Both the position numbers and the translations under genes were made by a program. Of a stretch of DNA of 64,000 bases, positions 2,261-10,998 are shown in pieces (the first letter of the stretch is position 1; each line of letters opens with the position of its first letter). The stretch lies in assembly GCA_902597545.1 (NCBI GenBank), contig CACJYD010000001.1:62001-126000 (forward strand), read 5' to 3'. Origin of the DNA: an uncultured Bacteroidota bacterium (GTDB lineage Bacteria > Bacteroidota > Bacteroidia > Flavobacteriales > Flavobacteriaceae). The notes beneath the pieces were generated by a model. It had not been told where the DNA came from. It searched no databases and saw only the letters and a list, made by a program, of their open reading frames with translations.

Positions 2261-2334
2261 GGTCCTATAGCTCAGTTGGTTAGAGTAGATGACTCATAAT
2301 CATTTGGTCCCTGGTTCGAGCCCAGGTGGGACCA
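2261..2334 (+). tRNA. tRNA-Met (anticodon CAT)
   Basis: A complete cloverleaf can be folded. The 7-bp acceptor stem pairs GGTCCTA with TGGGACC, with discriminator A at 2334. The D-arm is GCTC/GAGT, the anticodon stem GATGA/TCATT encloses loop CTCATAA with anticodon CAT, and the T-arm CCTGG/CCAGG encloses TTCGAGC. The G1-C72 pair and the anticodon stem argue against initiator tRNA. Elongator Met is likeliest, but a CAT-anticodon tRNA-Ile2 (lysidine-modified) cannot be excluded without comparison. The terminal CCA is not fully encoded. Its 3' half is the apparent integration target of the neighbouring islets. Confidence 0.93.
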
Positions 2335-2370
2335 CCCTTAAAACCCCTCTTCTTGAGGGGTTTTTTGTTT
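2323..2370 (+). repeat. Direct repeat copy 1: tRNA 3' end plus terminator (attL-like)
   Basis: These 48 bp run from the T-stem through the tRNA 3' end and its terminator. They are identical to 7366-7413, and the first 20 bp are identical to 6713-6732. A duplicated tRNA 3' end on both sides of foreign-looking genes is the classic footprint of tyrosine-recombinase integration (established knowledge); assigning it here is inference because no recombinase is present. Confidence 0.85.
2341..2367 (+). terminator. Rho-independent terminator after tRNA-Met
   Basis: A 6-bp G+C-rich stem CCCCTC/GAGGGG with loop TTCTT is followed by TTTTTT. It starts 7 bp after the tRNA discriminator base. The same terminator is copied at 7384-7410. 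Confidence 0.88.
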
Positions 2371-2385
2371 TTTAGAACCAAAAAC

Positions 2386-2416
2386 ACCCTTTGGGTAATA
2401 AATAGGGTAATAAATT
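2386..2416. repeat. Left-arm repeats of islet I (GGGTAATAAAT, 12-bp period)
   Basis: GGGTAATAAAT occurs at 2393-2403 and 2405-2415, a period of 12 bp. An inverted ACCC at 2386-2389 mirrors the first copy around TTT. The core GGTAA returns in inverted order at the right end of the islet (6616-6660). The layout resembles integrase arm or excisionase binding sites; function is inferred. Confidence 0.6.
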
Positions 2417-2430
2417 AATGAATTTAGTTT

Positions 2431-2459
2431 GAGAAAGTGTAAAAGCAGTTACACTTTCT
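2431..2459. repeat. Hairpin repeat, inverted copy (copy C)
   Basis: A 9-bp inverted repeat AGAAAGTGT/ACACTTTCT encloses a loop containing AAAAGCAG. It is the reverse complement, with a few changes, of the hairpins at 3019-3046 and 6589-6616. All three copies lie in intergenic parts of islet I. Confidence 0.7.
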
Positions 2460-2481
2460 AATTAAACCAAAAAACTTAAGT

Positions 2482-2625
2482 CTACTCATTTTCATCATGT
2501 GATTTATACCTGTCAGCCATCATTTCACGAAATAATGAGAGCGAGTCATGATCAATTGAATTGAAAAGACTCTTTATTTTACTTTCATTTTTAAACATTT
2601 TAATTTGAACTTTTTTATTCTTCAT
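2482..2625 (-). CDS. Small hypothetical protein (47 aa) of the R-M islet
   Basis: An ATG-started frame of 47 codons begins inside the last codons of the gene at 2615-2830 (11-bp overlap), which suggests translational coupling. The product is charged, Lys-rich at the N-terminus (MKNKKVQIKMFKNESK), and ends in MADRYKSHDENE. It has no signal peptide or membrane segment. No family is recognised. Its place in the islet next to restriction genes would allow a regulatory or accessory role, but nothing in the sequence shows one. Confidence 0.45.
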   Translation of the reverse strand: MKNKKVQIKMFKNESKIKSLFNSIDHDSLSLFREMMADRYKSHDENE

Positions 2626-2830
2626 CTTTATATATTTTTTTACTAATTAATTCTATTTTGAATCTAGGATCTTTTTTGTATTTCTTATCAACTCTAGACC
2701 AAGGACATCTTATGCCAATTTCGGTTGCACAGTGGTGATAAATAATTGCATTGGTCATTCCAAATCCAACAGGAACACCTAATTTTTTAAATGAAACTTT
2801 GAATGTTAATTCTCCTTTAAATTTTGCCAT
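2615..2830 (-). CDS. Hypothetical protein (71 aa) of the R-M islet
   Basis: The frame reads MAKFKGELTFKVSFKKLG, then NAIIYHHCATEIGIRC and a Lys-rich tail ending KKIYKDEE. I chose the ATG at 2830. A longer version starting at GTG 2905 would add a Cys-rich stretch (SCCNCLIKNC), but that start is weak. The product is basic, with one HHC and one further Cys, and has no signal peptide. It overlaps the next small gene by 11 bp. No family is recognised. Confidence 0.55.
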   Translation of the reverse strand: MAKFKGELTFKVSFKKLGVPVGFGMTNAIIYHHCATEIGIRCPWSRVDKKYKKDPRFKIELISKKIYKDEE

Positions 2831-2974
2831 AGTGTTACAATTTTTAATTAAACAATTGCAACAAGATTGAATCAGATTACTCGTTTGTTTGGTAGAGTTA
2901 CCCACATTCTAAACCACCGTGCTACGAGTGAGTCGGTTGGTACGCTTATGCGTTCTTGATGCTTTCTTAAATAT

Positions 2975-3047
2975 ACGATAATTATAGTAAAACCCGGATT
3001 ATTACCTGGCGAAGAATGAGAAAGTGTATCTGCTTTTACACGTTCTT
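2975..3047. repeat. Direct repeat copy A flanking the R-M genes (3' side)
   Basis: This stretch of about 73 bp matches 6543-6618 along most of its length. It comprises an ataattata segment, a CCGGA core, then a 24-bp perfect match (3018-3041 against 6588-6611) that forms most of a hairpin. The two copies lie immediately outside the endonuclease stop and the methyltransferase start, so the R-M pair sits between direct repeats like a cassette. Confidence 0.75.
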
Positions 3048-3049
3048 GG

Positions 3050-4315
3050 TTAAGGTTTGAAAGTCAAGTACTTATCGATCTCTTCCCAATTAAATGTGTA
3101 TTGATTGTTTTTATAAGATGATCTCTCCATTATATTAAGTTTTCGGTATAATTGGAATTCTGCTTGAAAAATTTTTGTTCTTCCACTTACGACTGCTCTG
3201 TTTACATTTCTTTTATATAATCCCTTTTGTTCCATATAATACTGAGAATGTATTCTAGCTTCAGTTGATGATTCAAATGTTTTGTTTTTTATAGACTCTT
3301 CCAAATCTAATATTAAATCAAAATGATTTCCTGTTTCCAAAACTAATTTTCCAAAATAAAGCTTTAATTCTTTCGATTCAATTCCAAATTTTTCCGCTAT
3401 TTCAATGTATTTTTCCCCATCATTGGTTAAGAAATAATTTGGATCCCAAAGGTTTAAATGGTCAACAAATTTTAAATAGTTTTTAGACTGAGATTTATAA
3501 AGATTATCATTTTGGCTACTATTGGTGAGGGTCGGCCTTCCGTCTTTTTTACAGTGTTCATTTATCTCATTAATTGCTTGTTCAGTGGTAATTTCGCCAG
3601 AAAGAACCTTTCTTTTAAGTTTTTCTTTCCTGCCTTTAAACGGTTCCATCTTTTTTATACCCCAATGATCTATTATGCTTTCAAATGGTTCAAGATTTCT
3701 ATTTTCATGTGGAAAATAATAATTGTCAAAAAACTCTTTCCATACTTGATCTTTTCTGTTGTCAATTAAACTAACTTTTTCGGCAGTTTTTAGCAATAAA
3801 TAAACTAAATGGGGGTTGGTATCTATAAATTTAGCCCAATACCTCGACTCTCTATTGCTAATAAATTCTTTTAGAGTAAAGTTTTCATCTATATCACAGA
3901 GCATTTCAATTTGAATTTCTCCGTTCGAATCAGTGCTGTGCTCAATTAGTCCAACGGGCGATTTTCCTTTTATAGAGTTTTCAAAAACTCCTTTCATATA
4001 ATTTGATATTTTAAAATCCTCAACTTCTTTTGGACAAATCAAATACGAGGCAGAAAACTTTTCTAAATATGTAAAACATTGACCAAGCCCTGTTTGAATA
4101 CCTCTTTTGGTTTCAATATCAGGTTTAAACTCTAAGGCTATACTTACTTTTTTAGATGTATCATAAATGTTCCCATCTTCACTAGGCCAACTTTTGTTAG
4201 TGTTTTTTAACAATAAATCTTTTGAAAAAACAGTATTAGACCATATTCCAGAAATAAAGTTATTTAAAAATATTCTTTGACACTGGCGAGATCTTATATC
4301 ATGATTTGTTGCCAT
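3050..4315 (-). CDS. Putative type II restriction endonuclease
   Basis: This 421-residue soluble protein has its ATG immediately after the TAA stop of the double cytosine methyltransferase (zero-base spacing). The N-terminal third looks like a PD-(D/E)XK core: acidic residues near 47-52, then IALEFKP (E62, K64), and Q79 in GLGQCFTYL. The arrangement D...E-x-K...Q is typical of restriction and repair nucleases. No family could be named from sequence alone. Position, size and an E-x-K motif support the cognate endonuclease of the adjacent methyltransferase. It would cut unmethylated foreign DNA in the cytoplasm. The motif reading and cognate role are inference. Confidence 0.7.
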   Translation of the reverse strand: MATNHDIRSRQCQRIFLNNFISGIWSNTVFSKDLLLKNTNKSWPSEDGNIYDTSKKVSIALEFKPDIETKRGIQTGLGQCFTYLEKFSASYLICPKEVEDFKISNYMKGVFENSIKGKSPVGLIEHSTDSNGEIQIEMLCDIDENFTLKEFISNRESRYWAKFIDTNPHLVYLLLKTAEKVSLIDNRKDQVWKEFFDNYYFPHENRNLEPFESIIDHWGIKKMEPFKGRKEKLKRKVLSGEITTEQAINEINEHCKKDGRPTLTNSSQNDNLYKSQSKNYLKFVDHLNLWDPNYFLTNDGEKYIEIAEKFGIESKELKLYFGKLVLETGNHFDLILDLEESIKNKTFESSTEARIHSQYYMEQKGLYKRNVNRAVVSGRTKIFQAEFQLYRKLNIMERSSYKNNQYTFNWEEIDKYLTFKP

Positions 4316-6481
4316 TTATCTAACTAATGAATATTTAGCGTGTTTAGAAATTGTTGATTCTGTCCAATTGTTTTTTGTAGCCTTGTAAATAATATTAGCA
4401 AAAGACTCAGCAGCTTTTACTGGAAAGGCATTTCCAACTTGTTTATTTTGACTTTCTTTTGTCCCAAAAAACTCATATGTATCTGGAAATGTTTGGAGTC
4501 TTGCGGCCTCTCTTGTTGTAATCTGCCTATTTAACCAAGGGTGAATAGGGAAAGCACTATGTCCAGGGACAAGAGTTGGAGAGGGGAGTTTACGATTTAA
4601 CCTAAAAAACACCTTACTAAAACTTTTAATTAGCTTTCCTGATCTACTATATTTTAGATGGTCAGGGAGATCATTTGGATCAATTTTTTTTCCTTCTTTT
4701 ATGAAACTAAATCTTTCAGAAACTGTTTCATTGTGGTTCATTGGCTCGTGATTATGGAAAGATTTTTCTTTGTTATCAAGATCAAAAATTGATTCACCAA
4801 CTGAACGATATTTTTTTTGCCATGATTTTGGTTCTTTATGAAACTTTGCTTTTGGCCATGGAATTTTCACCCCAATTTTATTTGCTAATAATATAAATCG
4901 TTTTCTTTCTTGAGGAACCCCATAATCTGCAGTATTAATAACTCTATAATCAATATTATCGTATCCTAAGTTTTTCAAGTCTGACATTATTGTCTTAAGA
5001 AACCAACCATCATTTAAACTAACTAAACCAGCAACATTTTCCATCATCACCCAATTGGGCTCAAGTAATTCAACATATTCAATAAAAGTAAAAACAAGAT
5101 TGTTTCTCATGTCAGATTTAGGATTAAAACTCTTAGTATTGATAAATCGTCTTTTTCCAAACATTGAAAACCCTTGACATGGAGGCCCTCCAACCAGTAC
5201 ATCAACATGAGTGTTTTTATATTTAGTTTTTATTGAATCATAAACTTTATTATTACTTAAGTCACCATATACAAATGGAGTTTTAGGGTTGTTTTTACTA
5301 AAAGTTTGTTGAACATTTTTATCAAAATCAGAAGAAAATAAATGATTGTATCCAGCATTTTCAAAACCAATTCCTATACCGCCAGCTCCTGAAAACAAAT
5401 CAATAAAATTCAAACCGTTGGAGTTGTCAATCTCTTTTAGGGTTGAATTATACTTTGGGAAGTAATTTTCTTTATTATTATTTTTTGTTTTATTATTGAG
5501 ATGGTCTTTTATTGATGAGGCTATATTTGCTGCTAACAATGGAGGAACTGCATTCCCAACTAATATACACTGTTCTCTTCTGTTGCCCTTAAAAATGAAT
5601 TCGTCAGGAAATGATTGTATTCTAGCAGCTTCCCTTGGAGTGAGACTTCTGTCTAGATATGGATGTACAGGAAAAGCATTATTTCCAGGAACCATGGTCG
5701 GAGCAAATTTATCTCTATGAAGTCTCACATAGGTATTCCCAAAGTTTTTTCTTCTTATTTTTTTTGGTAGTTCGTTTGGAGGAGGAAGTTTTCCGCCCTC
5801 AGGAATTAGCTTATACCTTTCAATAACAATCTCTCCGTGATTTAAAATCAAATGATTTTCTAATTGTGTTCCGTTACTTAAATCTCCAATTGCCTCATTG
5901 ACATTTTTGTACGATTTTATCTTAGAAATATTTTTATTTGATTTCTTCGGAAAAGAAAAAGGATTGTCCAATTTAGTACCAACTAGAATTACACGTTCTC
6001 TTTTTTGTGGAACACCGTAATCAGATGAATCAAACACTTTAAAATGTAAATTATAACCAAGAGATGTTATTTGATTTATTAATTTATTTAAAAACCTTCC
6101 TTTAAACATTGTTTTTAGACCTTTAACATTTTCAAAAACAAAACACTTAGGGTTAAGGTCAGAAATTAGCCTTAAATATTCTTCATATAATTCATTTCTA
6201 GGATCACCCGTGTTTTTGTCTCCCATAACAGAAAACCCTTGACACGGCGGACCACCAATAATTACATCTGGAACCTCGCCTTTAGTTAGAGACAAAACGG
6301 TTTTTTTAGAAATCAGTCTGATATCTGATTTTAGAAAAGGAATTTTAGGATAATTGTAACTATATGTTTCTTGAGCTTTGTCCCATATATCACTAGCTAA
6401 AATTATTTTGAAACCTTTAGCTTTGAAGCCAATATCAAATCCACCAGCACCAGTAAACAGGGATAATACTTTTATACTCAC
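4316..6481 (-). CDS. Fused double DNA (cytosine-5-)-methyltransferase
   Basis: Two complete C5 methyltransferase domains lie in one 721-residue chain. Domain 1 (about 4-325) has LSLFTGAGGFDIGF (motif I), GGPPCQGFS with catalytic C80, ENVKG (VI), QKRERV (VIII), REAARIQSFPD (IX) and GNAVPP (X). Domain 2 (about 358-700) has FIDLFSGAGGIGIGF, GGPPCQGFS with C435, ENVAG, QERKRF, REAARLQTFPD and GNAFP. Translation starts at GTG 6481. Both domains look intact. Fusion of two C5 enzymes is known in systems with asymmetric sites, where each strand needs its own specificity (established), so a type IIS-like site is inferred. It is the first gene of the pair with the endonuclease. Confidence 0.93.
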   Translation of the reverse strand: MSIKVLSLFTGAGGFDIGFKAKGFKIILASDIWDKAQETYSYNYPKIPFLKSDIRLISKKTVLSLTKGEVPDVIIGGPPCQGFSVMGDKNTGDPRNELYEEYLRLISDLNPKCFVFENVKGLKTMFKGRFLNKLINQITSLGYNLHFKVFDSSDYGVPQKRERVILVGTKLDNPFSFPKKSNKNISKIKSYKNVNEAIGDLSNGTQLENHLILNHGEIVIERYKLIPEGGKLPPPNELPKKIRRKNFGNTYVRLHRDKFAPTMVPGNNAFPVHPYLDRSLTPREAARIQSFPDEFIFKGNRREQCILVGNAVPPLLAANIASSIKDHLNNKTKNNNKENYFPKYNSTLKEIDNSNGLNFIDLFSGAGGIGIGFENAGYNHLFSSDFDKNVQQTFSKNNPKTPFVYGDLSNNKVYDSIKTKYKNTHVDVLVGGPPCQGFSMFGKRRFINTKSFNPKSDMRNNLVFTFIEYVELLEPNWVMMENVAGLVSLNDGWFLKTIMSDLKNLGYDNIDYRVINTADYGVPQERKRFILLANKIGVKIPWPKAKFHKEPKSWQKKYRSVGESIFDLDNKEKSFHNHEPMNHNETVSERFSFIKEGKKIDPNDLPDHLKYSRSGKLIKSFSKVFFRLNRKLPSPTLVPGHSAFPIHPWLNRQITTREAARLQTFPDTYEFFGTKESQNKQVGNAFPVKAAESFANIIYKATKNNWTESTISKHAKYSLVR

Positions 6482-6542
6482 GACCTAAAAATAACAAAGA
6501 ACTTTATCAAAAAAAACCAAAATGTAGTATAAGTTTTTAACT

Positions 6543-6618
6543 ACAATAATTATATAGTCTAAACCGGACTATAACCAGGTGATGGGCGAGAAAGTGTATC
6601 TGCTTTTACACTTTCTTA
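6543..6618. repeat. Direct repeat copy B flanking the R-M genes (5' side), with hairpin
   Basis: This is the partner of 2975-3047. It includes a perfect 9-bp stem AGAAAGTGT (6589-6597) with ACACTTTCT (6608-6616) around a 10-nt loop. It lies upstream of the methyltransferase start. Confidence 0.75.
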
Positions 6619-6660
6619 TTTTACCCAAAAGGTAACATTTTTATTACCTTGAGGGTAAAA
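6616..6660. repeat. Right-arm repeats of islet I (alternating GGTAA motifs)
   Basis: Four copies of the GGTAA core alternate in orientation at roughly 10-12 bp steps: TTACCC near 6621, AGGTAAC at 6630, TTATTACCT at 6641 and GGGTAAAA at 6653. They repeat the motif of the left end (2393-2415). Confidence 0.6.
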
Positions 6661-6702
6661 CACATATTTGTAACTAATTGATATAGAGATATTTAAGGGG
6701 TT

Positions 6703-6732
6703 GGTTTGAGTACAGGTGGGACCACCCTTAAA
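6703..6732 (+). repeat. Direct repeat copy 2: diverged tRNA-Met 3' remnant
   Basis: The T-arm half is degenerate (GGTTTGAGTA against GGTTCGAGCC in the tRNA), but 6713-6732 is identical to 2323-2342. The upstream tRNA parts are absent, so this is a remnant and not a functional tRNA. It marks the junction between islets I and II. Confidence 0.75.
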
Positions 6733-6770
6733 CCCTCTAAGTCCTTGACTATGAGGGTTTTTGTTTTTTT
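6730..6770 (+). terminator. Terminator-like hairpin in the middle att copy
   Basis: AAACCCTC pairs with GAGGGTTT. Inside, AGTC pairs with GACT around CTT, with two mismatched positions between the stems, and a T-rich tail follows. It differs in sequence from the terminators at 2341 and 7384 but holds the same position after the tRNA 3' remnant. Confidence 0.6.
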
Positions 6771-6781
6771 GATTTTTTTGT

Positions 6782-6812
6782 CCGAACCTTTTTCCGAACC
6801 TAAATCCAAACC
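6782..6812. repeat. Left-arm repeats of islet II (CCGAACCT, 12-bp period)
   Basis: CCGAACCT occurs at 6782-6789 and 6794-6801, and a degenerate CCAAACC at 6806-6812, giving a strict 12-bp period. The motif differs from that of islet I, but the period and position are the same. Confidence 0.65.
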
Positions 6813-6835
6813 AAATTAATTATTTTTGAAAGTTG

Positions 6836-7234
6836 ATGAACAGAAAATATTTTTATTATATAGTTTTTGGAGTTACATTTTTAACATTCGGATTGGTTCA
6901 AGATTACATCAGACCAAATTATGAAGGAGGAAATGACCTTATAATTTATTTTCTTGGAGTAATTCCCAACTTCCTTCCAGGTATTGGTCTTCCAAGTATG
7001 TTTTATGTAACCATTCCAGAGATTTTTAAACCTAATACATCTATTTACAGAAATAGATTAAAGTGGTCAATAATCATTTCTATGATTGGTCTAATTGGAA
7101 ATGAATTCATAACAATTTATACTCCGGGAAGAGGAGTTTTTGATTGGAATGATATTGTATGGACAATTATTGGGGGAATAGTTTTTTATTCTCTACATAT
7201 AACAATTCAAAACAATGGTTCTAAAAGAACCTGA
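6836..7234 (+). CDS. Small integral membrane protein, sole gene of islet II
   Basis: The 132-residue product has about four hydrophobic segments (roughly residues 5-22, 34-50, 72-90 and 105-122), with a conserved-looking NFLPGIGLP stretch in the middle. I take the ATG at 6836; a TTG lies one codon upstream. No enzymatic motif or known family is recognised. It is the only gene between the diverged tRNA remnant and the right repeat, so it would be the cargo of the second islet. Its last codons run into the repeat motif GGTTC/GAACC of the right end. A superinfection or phage-defence role would be only a guess. Confidence 0.6.
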   Translation: MNRKYFYYIVFGVTFLTFGLVQDYIRPNYEGGNDLIIYFLGVIPNFLPGIGLPSMFYVTIPEIFKPNTSIYRNRLKWSIIISMIGLIGNEFITIYTPGRGVFDWNDIVWTIIGGIVFYSLHITIQNNGSKRT

Positions 7235-7311
7235 ACCGGGGTTGTAGTCAAAACATCTTGATTTTTGAGAAGGTTCGTAATACGAACCTAAAAGGTTCGG
7301 ACTCCGAACCT
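7217..7311. repeat. Right-arm repeats of islet II (alternating AGGTTCG motifs)
   Basis: Four copies of AGGTTCGG or its complement alternate at about 10-11 bp steps: 7271-7277 (forward), 7283-7289 (reverse), 7293-7300 (forward) and 7304-7311 (reverse). An extra GGTTC/GAACC pair overlaps the stop of the membrane-protein gene (7217-7237). The same motif is found directly repeated at the left end (6782-6812). Confidence 0.65.
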
Positions 7312-7365
7312 CTTAAATCTAAAAAAGTAAGTATTTACGAAGTAAGAGTAACCTTCCTGTGAGGA

Positions 7366-7413
7366 CAGGTGGGACCACCCTTAAAACCCCTCTTCTTGAG
7401 GGGTTTTTTGTTT
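7366..7413 (+). repeat. Direct repeat copy 3: tRNA 3' end plus terminator (attR-like)
   Basis: All 48 bp are identical to 2323-2370. The copy ends within the stop codon of the DUF5723 gene, so the chromosome resumes here. Confidence 0.85.
7384..7410. terminator. Terminator in the right att copy
   Basis: The same CCCCTC/GAGGGG stem with TTCTT loop and T-tract as at 2341-2367. In the opposite direction it could also end the converging DUF5723 gene, whose stop codon abuts it. Confidence 0.75.
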
Positions 7414-8788
7414 AGCAATCACAATTAGATGTCTTTTTGTAAAAAGGATATATTTTAAATCCTAGCATAAACTCGATATGATTGAGTTTATCTTTTTTAA
7501 ACAGCATATTGGAAATATTATCAATGGAAAAATATAGAGGCCCAACTCTAGAAGATACTCCAAGCATGAGTTTTTTATATTCGTATAAGGTTGAGTTTAA
7601 AATCAGAGAATATTGCTTTTTTTCTACTCTCAGGCTGGAGCTCAATAAATTTGGTCTAATTAGAGAGTTATCTGCAATATTTAGCCTATTAATTAAAGTT
7701 GTATTAAAATAAAATGAACCCCAAAAGTTATAATCAAATTGAATGCTTAAAGCTAATGGCGTGTATAGCATGAAGGAATTTTTTTTAAAAGATTTGTTTC
7801 TGTCCCCATAAACTCTTTCAGACATGTCCTTATAATTTTTAACGTTACCAATATCTAGCTCTCTAGGACCTATTATATCGTAAACATGCACTTCACTTAA
7901 TTTGTTAAAACTTAAAAAACCTAAGTCTAAAAGAGAAACACCTAGCTTATAAAAGTAAGAATGATTGTCTTTAACATCGCTTTTTTTCTTATAAATACTA
8001 TAGCCCAAATCTAATCCAAATCCAATTCCTCTTTTTTGAAAAAGATTGTCGGCATTACCAACGAAATACTTAGATTCTGATCTAAAGTCATTGAAAAACA
8101 ACAGAGTTTCCACATCCCTATAAATCATTTTTGTCGGACTCTCTTGTTTAAAGTGAGTAGAATTATATGAAATATTAGTTTTTAAATTTAACCCGAACGA
8201 TTCTTTGAAAGAGCTGCTATTTTCTGTTGTAAAAGAATAATTTAATTTGATTTCAGTCCAATTTGCTGCATTAAGTTTTGAATTAGTTTGATCAAATAAA
8301 ATTTCATTTCCAAAATTCTCTTCTCTAAAATTATCGTAATTATATCCAGAATTAAGTGCTAAACTAGAAATATGTAATCTTTGGCTAACACCCAGTCCAT
8401 ATGTAAATACTTTTGAGGGTTTATAAACTTTAAAAATATATGATGGACCATTAAATTGAATTGAGGATAAAATTGAATATGGCTTATTGCTTTTATTTAG
8501 ATTTATTGTTAAATCATCCACAGATTCATCTTTAAATGGGTTAGTAACTTTTATATTTGAAAAAACATCCCCCAAGTCTAAATAAGATGAATTTTTTATA
8601 AAACCATAGTCAGTTTCGAATTGAAGGTCTATACCAAAAAGATTTATTTCTTGATCAATAGGGGAATTTAAAAAAGAAGTTGGGTTAATACTTATACCAT
8701 TAAACCCTGAATATCTTTCAGTCAAAATTCCAATATGCGACTGAGAATAACATGAAAAGGCAATAAAAAGTATTAAAATTCTCAGCAT
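7412..8788 (-). CDS. DUF5723-like outer-membrane protein
   Basis: The 458 residues begin with a signal peptide (MLRILILFIAFSCYSQS). Next comes a segment typical of this Bacteroidota family, ERYSGFNGISINPTSF, followed by DINLFG-like text (EINLFGIDLQFETDYG). The rest alternates short aromatic strands (for example FTYGLGVSQRLHISSLALN), as expected of a beta-barrel. The protein is therefore probably in the outer membrane; its function is unknown. The gene is divergent from dcp (59 bp apart), and its stop touches the right end of the tRNA islets. Family assignment is from memory of the N-terminal pattern. Confidence 0.7.
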   Translation of the reverse strand: MLRILILFIAFSCYSQSHIGILTERYSGFNGISINPTSFLNSPIDQEINLFGIDLQFETDYGFIKNSSYLDLGDVFSNIKVTNPFKDESVDDLTINLNKSNKPYSILSSIQFNGPSYIFKVYKPSKVFTYGLGVSQRLHISSLALNSGYNYDNFREENFGNEILFDQTNSKLNAANWTEIKLNYSFTTENSSSFKESFGLNLKTNISYNSTHFKQESPTKMIYRDVETLLFFNDFRSESKYFVGNADNLFQKRGIGFGLDLGYSIYKKKSDVKDNHSYFYKLGVSLLDLGFLSFNKLSEVHVYDIIGPRELDIGNVKNYKDMSERVYGDRNKSFKKNSFMLYTPLALSIQFDYNFWGSFYFNTTLINRLNIADNSLIRPNLLSSSLRVEKKQYSLILNSTLYEYKKLMLGVSSRVGPLYFSIDNISNMLFKKDKLNHIEFMLGFKIYPFYKKTSNCDC

Positions 8789-8847: not shown

Positions 8848-10998
8848 ATGAAAAAACTTATATTAATTTCAGGATTAATTTTAATGGTTTCTTGTCAAGA
8901 AAAATCCAAACTAGACCCTAATATCAATCCTTTTTTCCAGGATTGGACTACGCCATATGAGGTTCCCCCTTTTATGGATATCAAGAACGAGGATTATATG
9001 CCTGCTTTTAAAAAGGGAATGGAAGAAAATCTTGCAGAGATAGAAACTATTATTAAAAACACTGATGACCCAACCTTTGCTAATACAATTGAAGAGCTTG
9101 AAAGAACTGGTAAATTATTGAGCAAGGTTCAACGTGTATTTTCAAATTTAGCTAGCTCTAATACTAATCCAAAATTACAAGAACTACAAAGGGAATTAAG
9201 CCCAATGCTTTCTGCTCATTATGATAAAATCGTACTTAACGAGGACTTATTTAATAGAGTTGAAGAAATATGGAATAATAGAGAAAGTGCTAATTTAAGT
9301 AAAGAGCAACAAAAACTTTTAAAAGATACTAGAAAGCAATTTGTTAGAAGTGGAGCTTTATTAAATGATTCACAGAAAAAGCAAATTACAGAGATAAATT
9401 CAAAGATTTCTGAGTTATCAACTGAGTTTGGACAGAACCTACTTGCTGAAACTAACGGATTTGAATTAATTTTAAACAAATCAGATTTAGACGGTTTATC
9501 AGACGCTGTAATTTCTGCAGCATCAGAAGCAGCATCACAAAAAATGGATCAAGCTGAATCTGAAGATGAAAAAGAAAAATACAAAGACAAATATGTATTC
9601 ACTCCTCATCGTACAAGCATGTATCCTTTTTTGACAGAGTCAACAAGAAGAGATTTAAGAGAGAAACTGTACAACTCTTATGTAATGAGAGGTGATAATG
9701 CCAATGAAACTGATAACAATGATATTGCTGCTCAAATGGCTAAACTAAGAGCTGAAAGAGCAAATATCATGGGTTATAAAACTCATGCAGACTTTATCTT
9801 GGAAGAGAATATGCTCAAGACCCCAGATGAAGTTTACGATTTATTAATTCAACTTTGGAAACCTGCTTTAAAAAGAGCTAAAGCTGAGGTGGCAGATATG
9901 CAGGCGGTTGCTGATTCTGAGGGTAAGGATTTTAAAATAGCTGCTTGGGATTGGTGGCATTATTCTGAAAAAGTTAGAAAGGATAAGTATGATTTAGATG
10001 AAGCAGCTATAAGACCATATTTGTCATTAGACAATGTAATTCAAGGAGTTTTTAACACAACCAATAAGCTATGGGGTTTAAACTTTAAAGAGATTTTTGA
10101 TATTGATTCTTATCATCCCGATGCTCGCATTTGGGAAGTGACTGATAAAGATGGAAGTCACTTAGCTATATTCATTGGAGATTACTTTACTCGATCTAAC
10201 AAAAGAGGCGGAGCATGGATGAGTAGCTTTAAAGGTCAATCAAATTTAGATGGAAGAGAACGACCAATAGTTGTAAACGTATGTAACTTCCCAGCACCTG
10301 TTGGAGATAACCCTTCACTATTAAGTTTTGAAAATGCTGTTACTTTATTCCACGAATTTGGTCATGCCATGCATGGTATTCTAACAGATGTTACTTATGG
10401 AAGTATGGCAGGCACATCAGGACCTAGAGACTTTATTGAGCTACCATCACAATTGTTAGAGCATTGGGTAAGTGAACCCGAAGTTTTAAAATCATTTGCT
10501 ACACATTATGAAACAGGAGAAACAATTCCTGACGAATTAATTGAGAAGCTACTAAAAGCTGGAAAATTTAATCAAGGATTTATTAATACAGAATACCTTG
10601 CGGCCTCTCTACTAGATATGGATTGGCATACTTTATCTTTACAAGATGCTAAAAACATCTCTAATAATTTTGAAAATAATTCCATGAACAAAATAGGTTT
10701 AATTGATGAAATAGCTCCTAGATATAGAAGTACATATTTTGCTCATATTTTTTCAGGCGGATATTCATCAGGGTACTACAGTTATGTTCATGCAGCTGTT
10801 CTTGATTCGGATGCTTTCGAGGCCTTCAAAGAAGCGGGTGATGTTTTTGATCCTGAGCTTTCTGCTAGTCTTAGAAAAAATATTTACGAAAAAGGATCTA
10901 CCGAAGAAGCTATGGATTTATATGTAAACTTTAGAGGTCGTAAACCAATCATTGAGCCTTTATTAAAAGTTAGAGGTTTGGACGGGTCATCAGATTAG
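8848..10998 (+). CDS. dcp: M3 family peptidyl-dipeptidase (Dcp), lipoprotein
   Basis: This 716-residue zinc peptidase has the M3 signature HEFGHAMHG (H502, E503, H506) and the third ligand E531 in FIELPSQ. The C-terminal GGYSSGYYSYVHA and YEKGSTEEAMDLY segments are also typical. The N-terminus MKKLILISGLILMVSCQ is a lipoprotein signal with Cys17, so the enzyme is exported to the cell envelope. M3 Dcp enzymes release C-terminal dipeptides from peptides (family knowledge). Length fits the family. A 21-bp gap separates it from the HupE-like gene, so the two are probably cotranscribed. Confidence 0.93.
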   Translation: MKKLILISGLILMVSCQEKSKLDPNINPFFQDWTTPYEVPPFMDIKNEDYMPAFKKGMEENLAEIETIIKNTDDPTFANTIEELERTGKLLSKVQRVFSNLASSNTNPKLQELQRELSPMLSAHYDKIVLNEDLFNRVEEIWNNRESANLSKEQQKLLKDTRKQFVRSGALLNDSQKKQITEINSKISELSTEFGQNLLAETNGFELILNKSDLDGLSDAVISAASEAASQKMDQAESEDEKEKYKDKYVFTPHRTSMYPFLTESTRRDLREKLYNSYVMRGDNANETDNNDIAAQMAKLRAERANIMGYKTHADFILEENMLKTPDEVYDLLIQLWKPALKRAKAEVADMQAVADSEGKDFKIAAWDWWHYSEKVRKDKYDLDEAAIRPYLSLDNVIQGVFNTTNKLWGLNFKEIFDIDSYHPDARIWEVTDKDGSHLAIFIGDYFTRSNKRGGAWMSSFKGQSNLDGRERPIVVNVCNFPAPVGDNPSLLSFENAVTLFHEFGHAMHGILTDVTYGSMAGTSGPRDFIELPSQLLEHWVSEPEVLKSFATHYETGETIPDELIEKLLKAGKFNQGFINTEYLAASLLDMDWHTLSLQDAKNISNNFENNSMNKIGLIDEIAPRYRSTYFAHIFSGGYSSGYYSYVHAAVLDSDAFEAFKEAGDVFDPELSASLRKNIYEKGSTEEAMDLYVNFRGRKPIIEPLLKVRGLDGSSD

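Follow-up and report, generated by a model that had tools for sequence, protein, structure and literature searches.

Two tandem integrase-less units behind a flavobacterial tRNA-Met gene carry paired, unit-specific end repeats

Introduction

Islands that are bounded by fragments of a tRNA gene and encode no integrase raise the question of what moves them. We addressed this question at a locus of an uncultured member of the Flavobacteriaceae (Bacteroidota), in which two small units, termed A and B, are stacked behind a tRNA-Met gene. The locus lies in a stretch of 64,000 nucleotides (GenBank assembly GCA_902597545.1, contig CACJYD010000001.1, positions 62,001 to 126,000 of the forward strand), which is referred to as the window and to which all coordinates below apply. 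Bacteroidota tyrosine-integrase elements of the CTnDOT/NBU type have a core and arm architecture that is served by an arm-binding integrase; the window units differ from this type in being without integrase and transfer genes. We consider it likely, judging from sequence comparison, that A and B are non-autonomous site-specific integrative cassettes that are moved in trans by a tyrosine integrase, with the repeats at their ends acting as arm sites.

Results

Three copies of the tRNA-Met 3' end bound units A and B

The sole tRNA detected by ARAGORN in the window is a tRNA-Met, and a piece of 14-20 bp from its 3' end is present at 2323, 6713 and 7366, bounding the two units:

2261..2336, plus strand: tRNA-Met (CAT), integration target (ARAGORN)
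2323..2342, plus strand: attachment (att) core copy 1, tRNA 3' end, attL of unit A (identical 20-mer at 6713 and 7366)
2343..6732, no strand: unit A, restriction-modification islet without recombinase, 4,390 bp core to core (crossover placed only to within the core)
6713..6732, plus strand: att core copy 2, A/B junction (repeat comparison)
6733..7385, no strand: unit B, one-gene islet, 653 bp core to core, found alone in genomes G021, G442 and G445
7366..7413, plus strand: att core copy 3 (attR) with the terminator of the chromosome itself, matching the empty site of G020

The exact 20-mer CAGGTGGGACCACCCTTAAA is common to all three core copies and has three matches in the entire host assembly, all at this locus; together with the shuffle tests of 12-bp spacing reported below, this led us to reject chance repeats. 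Within the wider repeat family (D1), the segment 2318-2370 matches 7361-7413 at 96% and 6708-6760 at 62% (ungapped, 53 nt), whereas 2323-2370 and 7366-7413 are 100% identical over 48 bp. An initial annotation of this DNA had described three copies of the tRNA end, two of them identical over 48 bp and the middle one diverged and equipped with its own terminator (hairpin 6730-6760), and all of this holds. We read the 48-bp identity as the core plus a terminator of a type that unit A and the chromosome have in common, the core copy directly behind the tRNA being, on this comparison, the left end of unit A.

Empty sites and solitary copies of unit B

The initial annotation had proposed to look among relatives for an empty tRNA site and for different cargo between the same flanks; an empty site and varying cargo at this tRNA both exist. 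In G020, which belongs to the same genus, tRNA-Met, core and terminator are directly followed by the downstream open reading frame (ORF). In the window, the 500 bp that precede the core are 96.8% identical to this empty site and the 500 bp from the third core on are 96.4% identical, and copy 7366-7413 is therefore regarded as chromosomal; at the place of unit A, the comparison yields 46%, that is noise. Relatives of the ORFs at 14-2194 (upstream), 7412-8788 and 8848-10998 (downstream) flank the same tRNA in G020, so these ORFs were taken as chromosomal as well; the 458-aa flanking ORF matched no Pfam family. A second pair of an occupied and an empty site is provided by G445 (unit B only) and G319, whose flanks are 90.7% and 88.8% alike. 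Thus, the locus is not one of invariant gene order, and cargo varies strongly between relatives.

Unit B occurs as the solitary unit behind tRNA-Met in G021, G442 and G445 (99.2%, 98.1% and 99.5% DNA identity, respectively), which marks it as a separate element rather than a piece of a decayed island. Flank divergence was measured for two of these genomes: relative to G021, the upstream ORF of the host is 44% identical in protein, and relative to G445, the 300 bp preceding the core show 56% DNA identity. Elsewhere, unit B is the second unit of a stack (G017, 89% overall), adjoins a deletion (G231), is cut by a contig end (G440) or shares a unit with other cargo (G325). The protein encoded by B, orf133, is present in 8 of 397 family genomes including the host, at 92-98% in G021, G231 and G325, at 57% in G229 and at 26-41% in three distant relatives.

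The tRNA-Met locus is visible in 14 of 23 genus genomes; in two of these, G018 and G012, the contig ends in or at the core. Among the 12 loci assessed, complete units were present in four (G000, G017, G021, G013) and a left end only in five (G014, G019, G006 and G010, the latter two with 11-bp spacing, and G016, by eye); one was empty (G020) and two were ambiguous (G002, G008).

In most units, the end repeats have a fixed spacing and a unit-specific word

Just inside the left core, most units carry two direct copies of a word of 6-8 bp that are exactly 12 bp apart, the first copy starting 53-67 bp after the 14-bp core. The word recurs near the right core, mostly as an inverted array at about -92, -82, -71 and -60. 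The corresponding features of the window are:

2393..2411, plus strand: left iterons of unit A, two copies of GGGTAAT (2393, 2405) spaced by 12 bp, which would be integrase arm sites
6621..6658, no strand: right iteron array of unit A, TTACCC at 6621, ATTACC at 6643 (by eye), GGGTAA at 6653
6781..6800, plus strand: left iterons of unit B, two copies of TCCGAACC (6781, 6793) spaced by 12 bp
7272..7310, no strand: right iteron array of unit B, GGTTCG / CGAACC (both by eye) / GGTTCGGA / TCCGAACC

The spacing was assessed in 41 left regions, comprising 24 units, seven further integrase elements and ten other sites, by scoring 6-mers with at least three G/C that recur at a distance of exactly 12 bp; dinucleotide shuffles (300 rounds) served as the control. 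Such a repeat was present in 30 of the 41 regions, as compared to a shuffle mean of 0.12 and a maximum of 1. By class, it was detected in 21/24 units, 6/7 integrase elements and 3/10 other sites, the four empty or undetermined sites within the last class having none (0/4). The seventh integrase element (L083) has AAGAACA at 12 bp by eye, which is below the G/C limit.

The word itself varies: for instance, it is GGGTAAT in A, CCGAACC in B, GGGTATG in G017u1, GGGTACC in G026u1, GGGTTCC in G434u1, GAGTTCC in G110u1 and GTGTACC in G110u3. To compare left with right ends, 15 units were used, nine near-copies or units with the same word having been dropped beforehand, and pairs were permuted 20,000 times. 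Own left-right pairs share 139 7-mers, relative to a permuted mean of 30 and a maximum of 91 (0/20,000), and at least one 7-mer is shared in 14 of the 15 own pairs. Unit B of G017 is instructive in this respect: its gene is 96.8% identical, and another word is found at both of its ends (left arm 65.5%, right arm 59.3%), with the last 45 bp before the core being 88.9% identical. This paired change suggests that the arms are under matched selection or were replaced as a pair.

A family of cassettes at tRNA-Met

The 24 units, each bounded by two cores, stem from 16 genomes that were selected for carrying the core; a further unit in G126 stands outside these counts. Restriction-modification cargo is found in unit A of the window (winA), G017u1, G434u1, G110u3 and G404u1. 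G110u2 encodes two C5 methyltransferases with no restriction enzyme recognised, and in G013u1 and G344u1 a methyltransferase lies beside an integrase gene. G110u1 carries the PADLOC candidate defence protein PDC-S18, a relative of which (93% identical) is present in G404u2. Other cargo includes a TonB receptor (G013u2), GNAT (G325u1), DUF1569 with orf133 (G325u2), a short-chain dehydrogenase (G182u1), CobW (G440u2), a YHYH protein (G443u1) and DUF6804 (G026u1); the remaining units are without assigned cargo. Units are also reshuffled: G110 and G404, which are listed under different genera, have two units in common (95.6% and 84.8% in DNA) in opposite order, and their upstream 200 bp are 49% identical over 150 aligned columns. 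DUF1569 makes up a separate unit in G126 (L124; 97% in amino acids) but is combined with orf133 in a single unit in G325 (L043), where the combination appears to be a cassette fusion.

A terminator hairpin directly follows the core in 23/24 left ends, so that an insertion would restore termination of the tRNA transcript. The exact junction 21-mer was found in 13 stretches of a collection of 84,980 species, and the titles of all 13 name Flavobacteriaceae, Bacteroidetes or Cryomorphaceae; those from AG-numbered isolates are presumably single-cell genomes. Further copies of the tRNA 3' end near tRNA-Met in G032, G035, G038 and G040 were kept outside the unit analysis.

The T-arm of the tRNA recurs in inverted orientation (like GGACTATAACCAGGT) at 6566-6580 in A and at 7227-7241 in B, overlapping the end of orf133, and such a copy is found 117-157 bp before the right core in 14/24 units (near-copies included; at most 4/15 mismatches); its variant often fits the right-end half-site of its own unit (by eye). 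Behind orf133 in G231 (L042), a deletion has brought the right core of B next to the right array of a unit of the GGGTTCC type (by eye), and this junction would be the fossil of a lost neighbour unit.

Units without recombinase and a candidate helper integrase

The initial annotation had stated that neither islet has a recombinase, and the searches agree. No recombinase family was matched by the four window ORFs of A and B (Pfam for all four, PADLOC and NCBIfam for three each), nor was a transfer-gene family; two of the four match no Pfam family at all. An integrase profile searched against all six frames of both units gave no match. For the family as a whole, hmmsearch was run on 394 six-frame fragments from the 24 units and a Xer-bearing control locus, using a profile of eight integrases that includes those of G013u1 and G344u1. 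Only these two and the Xer control were matched, leaving 22/24 units without integrase in a search that covered tyrosine integrases only. Pfam scans covered part of the small ORFs in units outside the window. In three units, methyltransferase ORFs gave weak blastp matches with Xer, which on inspection were taken as chance. Within the window, A and B have no autonomous neighbour.

All 23 genus genomes have a Phage_integrase match, with ORFs of 286-333 aa nearly throughout, and from their size we infer that nearly all of these are Xer. The exceptions are a 533-aa integrase directly behind tRNA-Met in G013 and proteins of 346-350 aa near tRNA-Asn in G003 and G017. The G013 integrase combines PF17293 (Arm-DNA-bind_5), PF13102 and PF00589, that is arm-binding, SAM-like and catalytic domains, and has homologues at E 1e-20 in 7/397 family genomes, a sample to which G013 does not belong. 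Those of G344 and G097 are 97-98% identical, and both lie behind tRNA-Met with the same word, GGGTACT. An integrase is thus the first gene behind tRNA-Met in G013, G344 and G097, which is not the case in the window. Six further homologues are 34-38% identical and lie behind tRNA-Phe (four), tRNA-Asp and tRNA-Val; their open frames span 520-567 aa, with one exception cut by a contig end.

The direct repeats at 12 bp next to the left core are common to the window units and the integrase-bearing Arm-DNA-bind_5 elements. Inverted right arrays are present in L078, L082 and L084, where the right end of the integrase element was found, and in L082, L083 and L085 the word is found once more immediately ahead of the integrase start codon (by eye), an arrangement that would be consistent with self-regulation. 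The window units hence appear to have the sites of integrase-bearing elements without the enzyme. In the stack of G013, the right 160 bp of the integrase unit and of the integrase-less unit are 86% identical, and the left end of the latter is without the word.

A search for helpers with the pattern YCGAACCN{4,6}YCGAACC, derived from the word of B, gave matches in 65/397 family genomes. Among the 30 loci examined (L094-L123), tRNA or core was present in four only (G000, G021, G140, G126); the two matches in G325 were already known, and the matching contigs of G342 and G308 had neither core nor tRNA. Peptide patterns for the integrase and orf133 gave no match in IMG/VR. Nine plasmid records match the integrase at 22-31% identity, and 21 phage records match it at below 60%, the identity being 24-28% among the ten matches listed.

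Separately from these elements, the 346-350-aa tyrosine recombinases of G003 (L045) and G017 (L046) lie near tRNA-Asn, the 3' end of which is repeated 8.7-9.9 kb away, and these loci seem to represent a second type of tRNA-targeted element in the genus.

Cargo and inner architecture of units A and B

The remaining features of the two units are the following:

2340..2364, plus strand: terminator hairpin with a T run behind it, part of unit A's left end (-15.2 kcal/mol)
2432..2459, no strand: palindromic hairpin inside A's left end, AGAAAGTGTA...TACACTTTCT, inverted partner at 6589-6616 (I2, 96%)
2615..2905, minus strand: 96-aa ORF, no family matched (Pfam, NCBIfam)
2964..3047, no strand: 75% copy of 6534-6617, inner right-end-like segment in the middle of unit A, adjoining the 96-aa ORF (D2)
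3050..4315, minus strand: 421-aa protein, weakly matched, likely a restriction endonuclease of Type II (PADLOC REase_II E 1e-5; PaqCI E 0.002)
4316..6481, minus strand: 721-aa double C5-cytosine DNA methyltransferase (PF00145, E 5e-149, two stretches; PADLOC)
6730..6760, plus strand: terminator hairpin in the left end of unit B (-14.1 kcal/mol)
6833..7234, plus strand: orf133, 133-aa small membrane-type protein, start TTG 6833 or ATG 6836 (VanZ PF04892, E 0.004, sub-threshold)

The proposed division into a restriction-modification islet and a one-gene islet is therefore retained, with a methyltransferase and a likely restriction enzyme in A and orf133 in B. The match of the 421-aa protein to PaqCI, a Type IIS enzyme, extends over 87 residues, and the protein is likely a Type II restriction enzyme. 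The right-end-like segment at 2964-3047 suggests that A may have arisen when two older units fused. The near-perfect palindromic hairpins at 2432-2459 and 6589-6616 (AGAAAGTGTA...) flank the cargo of A just inside the iterons; similar hairpins were seen in several other units (by eye), and they are perhaps two-way terminators that insulate the cargo.

Discussion

A model for movement in trans and its alternatives

The initial annotation had suggested non-autonomous units that share one attachment site and are mobilised in trans, or one island extended by a second insertion. That A and B are separate elements is supported by the solitary copies of B; mobilisation in trans is proposed because the end repeats retained by the units are spaced as in integrase-encoding elements. 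According to our model, each cassette would consist of a core derived from the tRNA-Met 3' end, a replacement terminator, arm-type sites at both ends and cargo, that is restriction-modification in A and a small membrane protein in B. A tyrosine integrase of the Arm-DNA-bind_5 type would be supplied by another element, such as those at the same tRNA in G013, G344 and G097. This enzyme would bind the arm sites, join the cassette ends to form a circle and insert the circle at the tRNA core. Each insertion would supply a new core and terminator, which would rebuild the tRNA 3' end and make tandem stacking possible. Since the arm word varies between units and agrees at both ends of one unit, it would act as an address that determines by which integrase a unit can be moved. 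What was observed directly is the anatomy, the empty site, near-identical copies of B between divergent flanks, the changed order of units and a spacing of end repeats in common with integrase-encoding elements; arm function, action in trans and the route between cells are inferred.

Several findings speak against this model. A single tyrosine recombinase, of Xer size, is found in the host assembly, which is 85% complete, and none of the integrase loci examined carries the word of A or B, the tRNA-Met integrases seen having GGGTACT only; the exact junction 21-mer is also without a match in IMG/VR. G013u2, G442u1 and G440u2 miss the exact 12-bp test, and G013u2 additionally misses the left-right match. 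At least one 7-mer is shared by 101/210 mismatched end pairs as well, because the words are related and inner hairpins are common, so that the contrast between own and mismatched pairs is a matter of degree. The loci were chosen for carrying the core, and frequencies are accordingly biased. Several sites (G014, G019, G010 and others) keep a left end without a right core, and many units may hence be fixed or decayed. Finally, the restriction enzyme of unit A occurs in 1/269 family genomes, the host itself, and had no match in the 17 loci compared; the case for mobility of A itself therefore rests on its anatomy and the empty site.

Could the units have spread without an integrase? Homologous recombination between tRNA loci, following natural transformation or other uptake, with the repeats as relics of an ancient integrase, would be in keeping with the sites that keep one end only, with the failure to find a cognate integrase for A or B, and with the 48 bp of core and terminator that A and the chromosome have in common. 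However, B is 99% identical in hosts whose flanks are 44% (protein, G021) or 56% (DNA, G445) identical, and in G017 both arms changed together around a gene that is 97% identical, which makes this explanation unlikely in our view. It is distinctly less probable still that the end repeats bind another protein, be it a replication initiator of the excised circle or a packaging or transcription factor, and that the cores are recombined by XerC/D or an unrelated enzyme. Iteron arrays do occur in replication origins, and the host has a tyrosine recombinase of Xer size, but the same 12-bp spacing is found between tRNA and integrase gene in integrase-bearing elements, three of these have the extra word ahead of the start codon of the integrase gene (by eye), and an arm-binding domain is predicted in the integrase.

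The least probable explanation is a single old integrative island that decayed around internal tRNA fragments, in place of two insertions. The inner right-end-like remnant of A and the unit G325u2, in which orf133 is combined with a DUF1569 gene that is its own unit in G126, indicate that fusions of units may occur and would be compatible with such an origin. Yet B is solitary at tRNA-Met in three genomes, the words of A and B differ, and the order of two units is swapped between G110 and G404; on account of the solitary copies, we rejected this possibility. Trans-mobilised cassettes thus provide the explanation that we favour.

Relation to known elements

Elements of this kind are already known from published descriptions of integrase-less islands at RNA gene ends, tRNA-end cassettes and hitchers (PMC3146451, PMC10872708, PMC7771536, PMC11389934). 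At ssrA of Dehalococcoides, tandem islands are bounded by a 20-bp repeat of the RNA gene 3' end, and 15 islands without an integration module are described as possible cis-mobilizable elements (CIMEs) moved by accretion (PMC3146451). The window units resemble these islands in being tandem, integrase-less and bounded by repeats of an RNA gene end; as far as that description goes, the Dehalococcoides islands involve a serine recombinase and reductive dehalogenase cargo, whereas here the integrase family is of the tyrosine type, the units can be as small as 0.63 kb, and their paired end repeats are specific for each unit. A and B have two traits of CIMEs, namely flanking attachment sites and ORFs that match no recombinase or transfer-gene family. 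CIMEs are further moved in cis after accretion with an autonomous neighbour; no such neighbour lies in the window, and in G013 an integrase unit is stacked with an integrase-less one. Additive flexible islands with tRNA-end repeats, ranging from 330 bp to 42 kb, are reported for Methylophilaceae (PMC10872708), and cassette transfer between genera for Ca. Actinomarinales (PMC7771536). Streamlined planktonic hosts, recurring tRNA-end repeats and variable cargo at one site are shared features, whereas the sections of these papers that we drew on mention neither a helper integrase nor end repeats other than the tRNA fragment, and no rule as to what moves a given unit.

Tycheposons, as cited in PMC10872708 and PMC11389934, are tRNA-bounded cargo elements of marine bacteria with a tyrosine recombinase and a size of 4-200 kb; A and B depart from this definition, both being without recombinase and B measuring 653 bp. 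Arrays of clusters of attC sites lacking integrases (CALIN) and miniature inverted-repeat transposable elements (MITEs) are recombinase-less 'hitchers' that are moved in trans via their end sites (PMC11389934); the window units would be alike in this respect, with a tRNA end as their site. Among the titles and abstract openings listed from the open-licence literature, none dealt with cassettes of this type whose paired arm words are specific for each unit. With CIMEs and additive-island cassettes known, the new part would be the paired, unit-specific end word.

Implications

As a possible but tentative extension, streamlined marine flavobacteria may share a pool of integrase-less tRNA-Met cassettes in which the end repeats form a swappable address code, such that few integrases, each reading one word, move many cassettes. 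The code would consist of a fixed spacing and a variable 7-bp word that is the same at both ends and swapped as a pair. A few rare integrases would then serve many defence and metabolic cassettes, amounting to an integron-like exchange built on tRNA integration. The sequence rule, that is 12-bp fixed spacing and a unit-specific word, would allow cassettes to be found and matched with helpers, and the question of what moves integrase-less islands becomes directly testable by pairing each word with an integrase. If true, this mechanism would help to explain how restriction systems and small metabolic genes are traded across genera in streamlined ocean bacteria that are poor in mobile-element genes.

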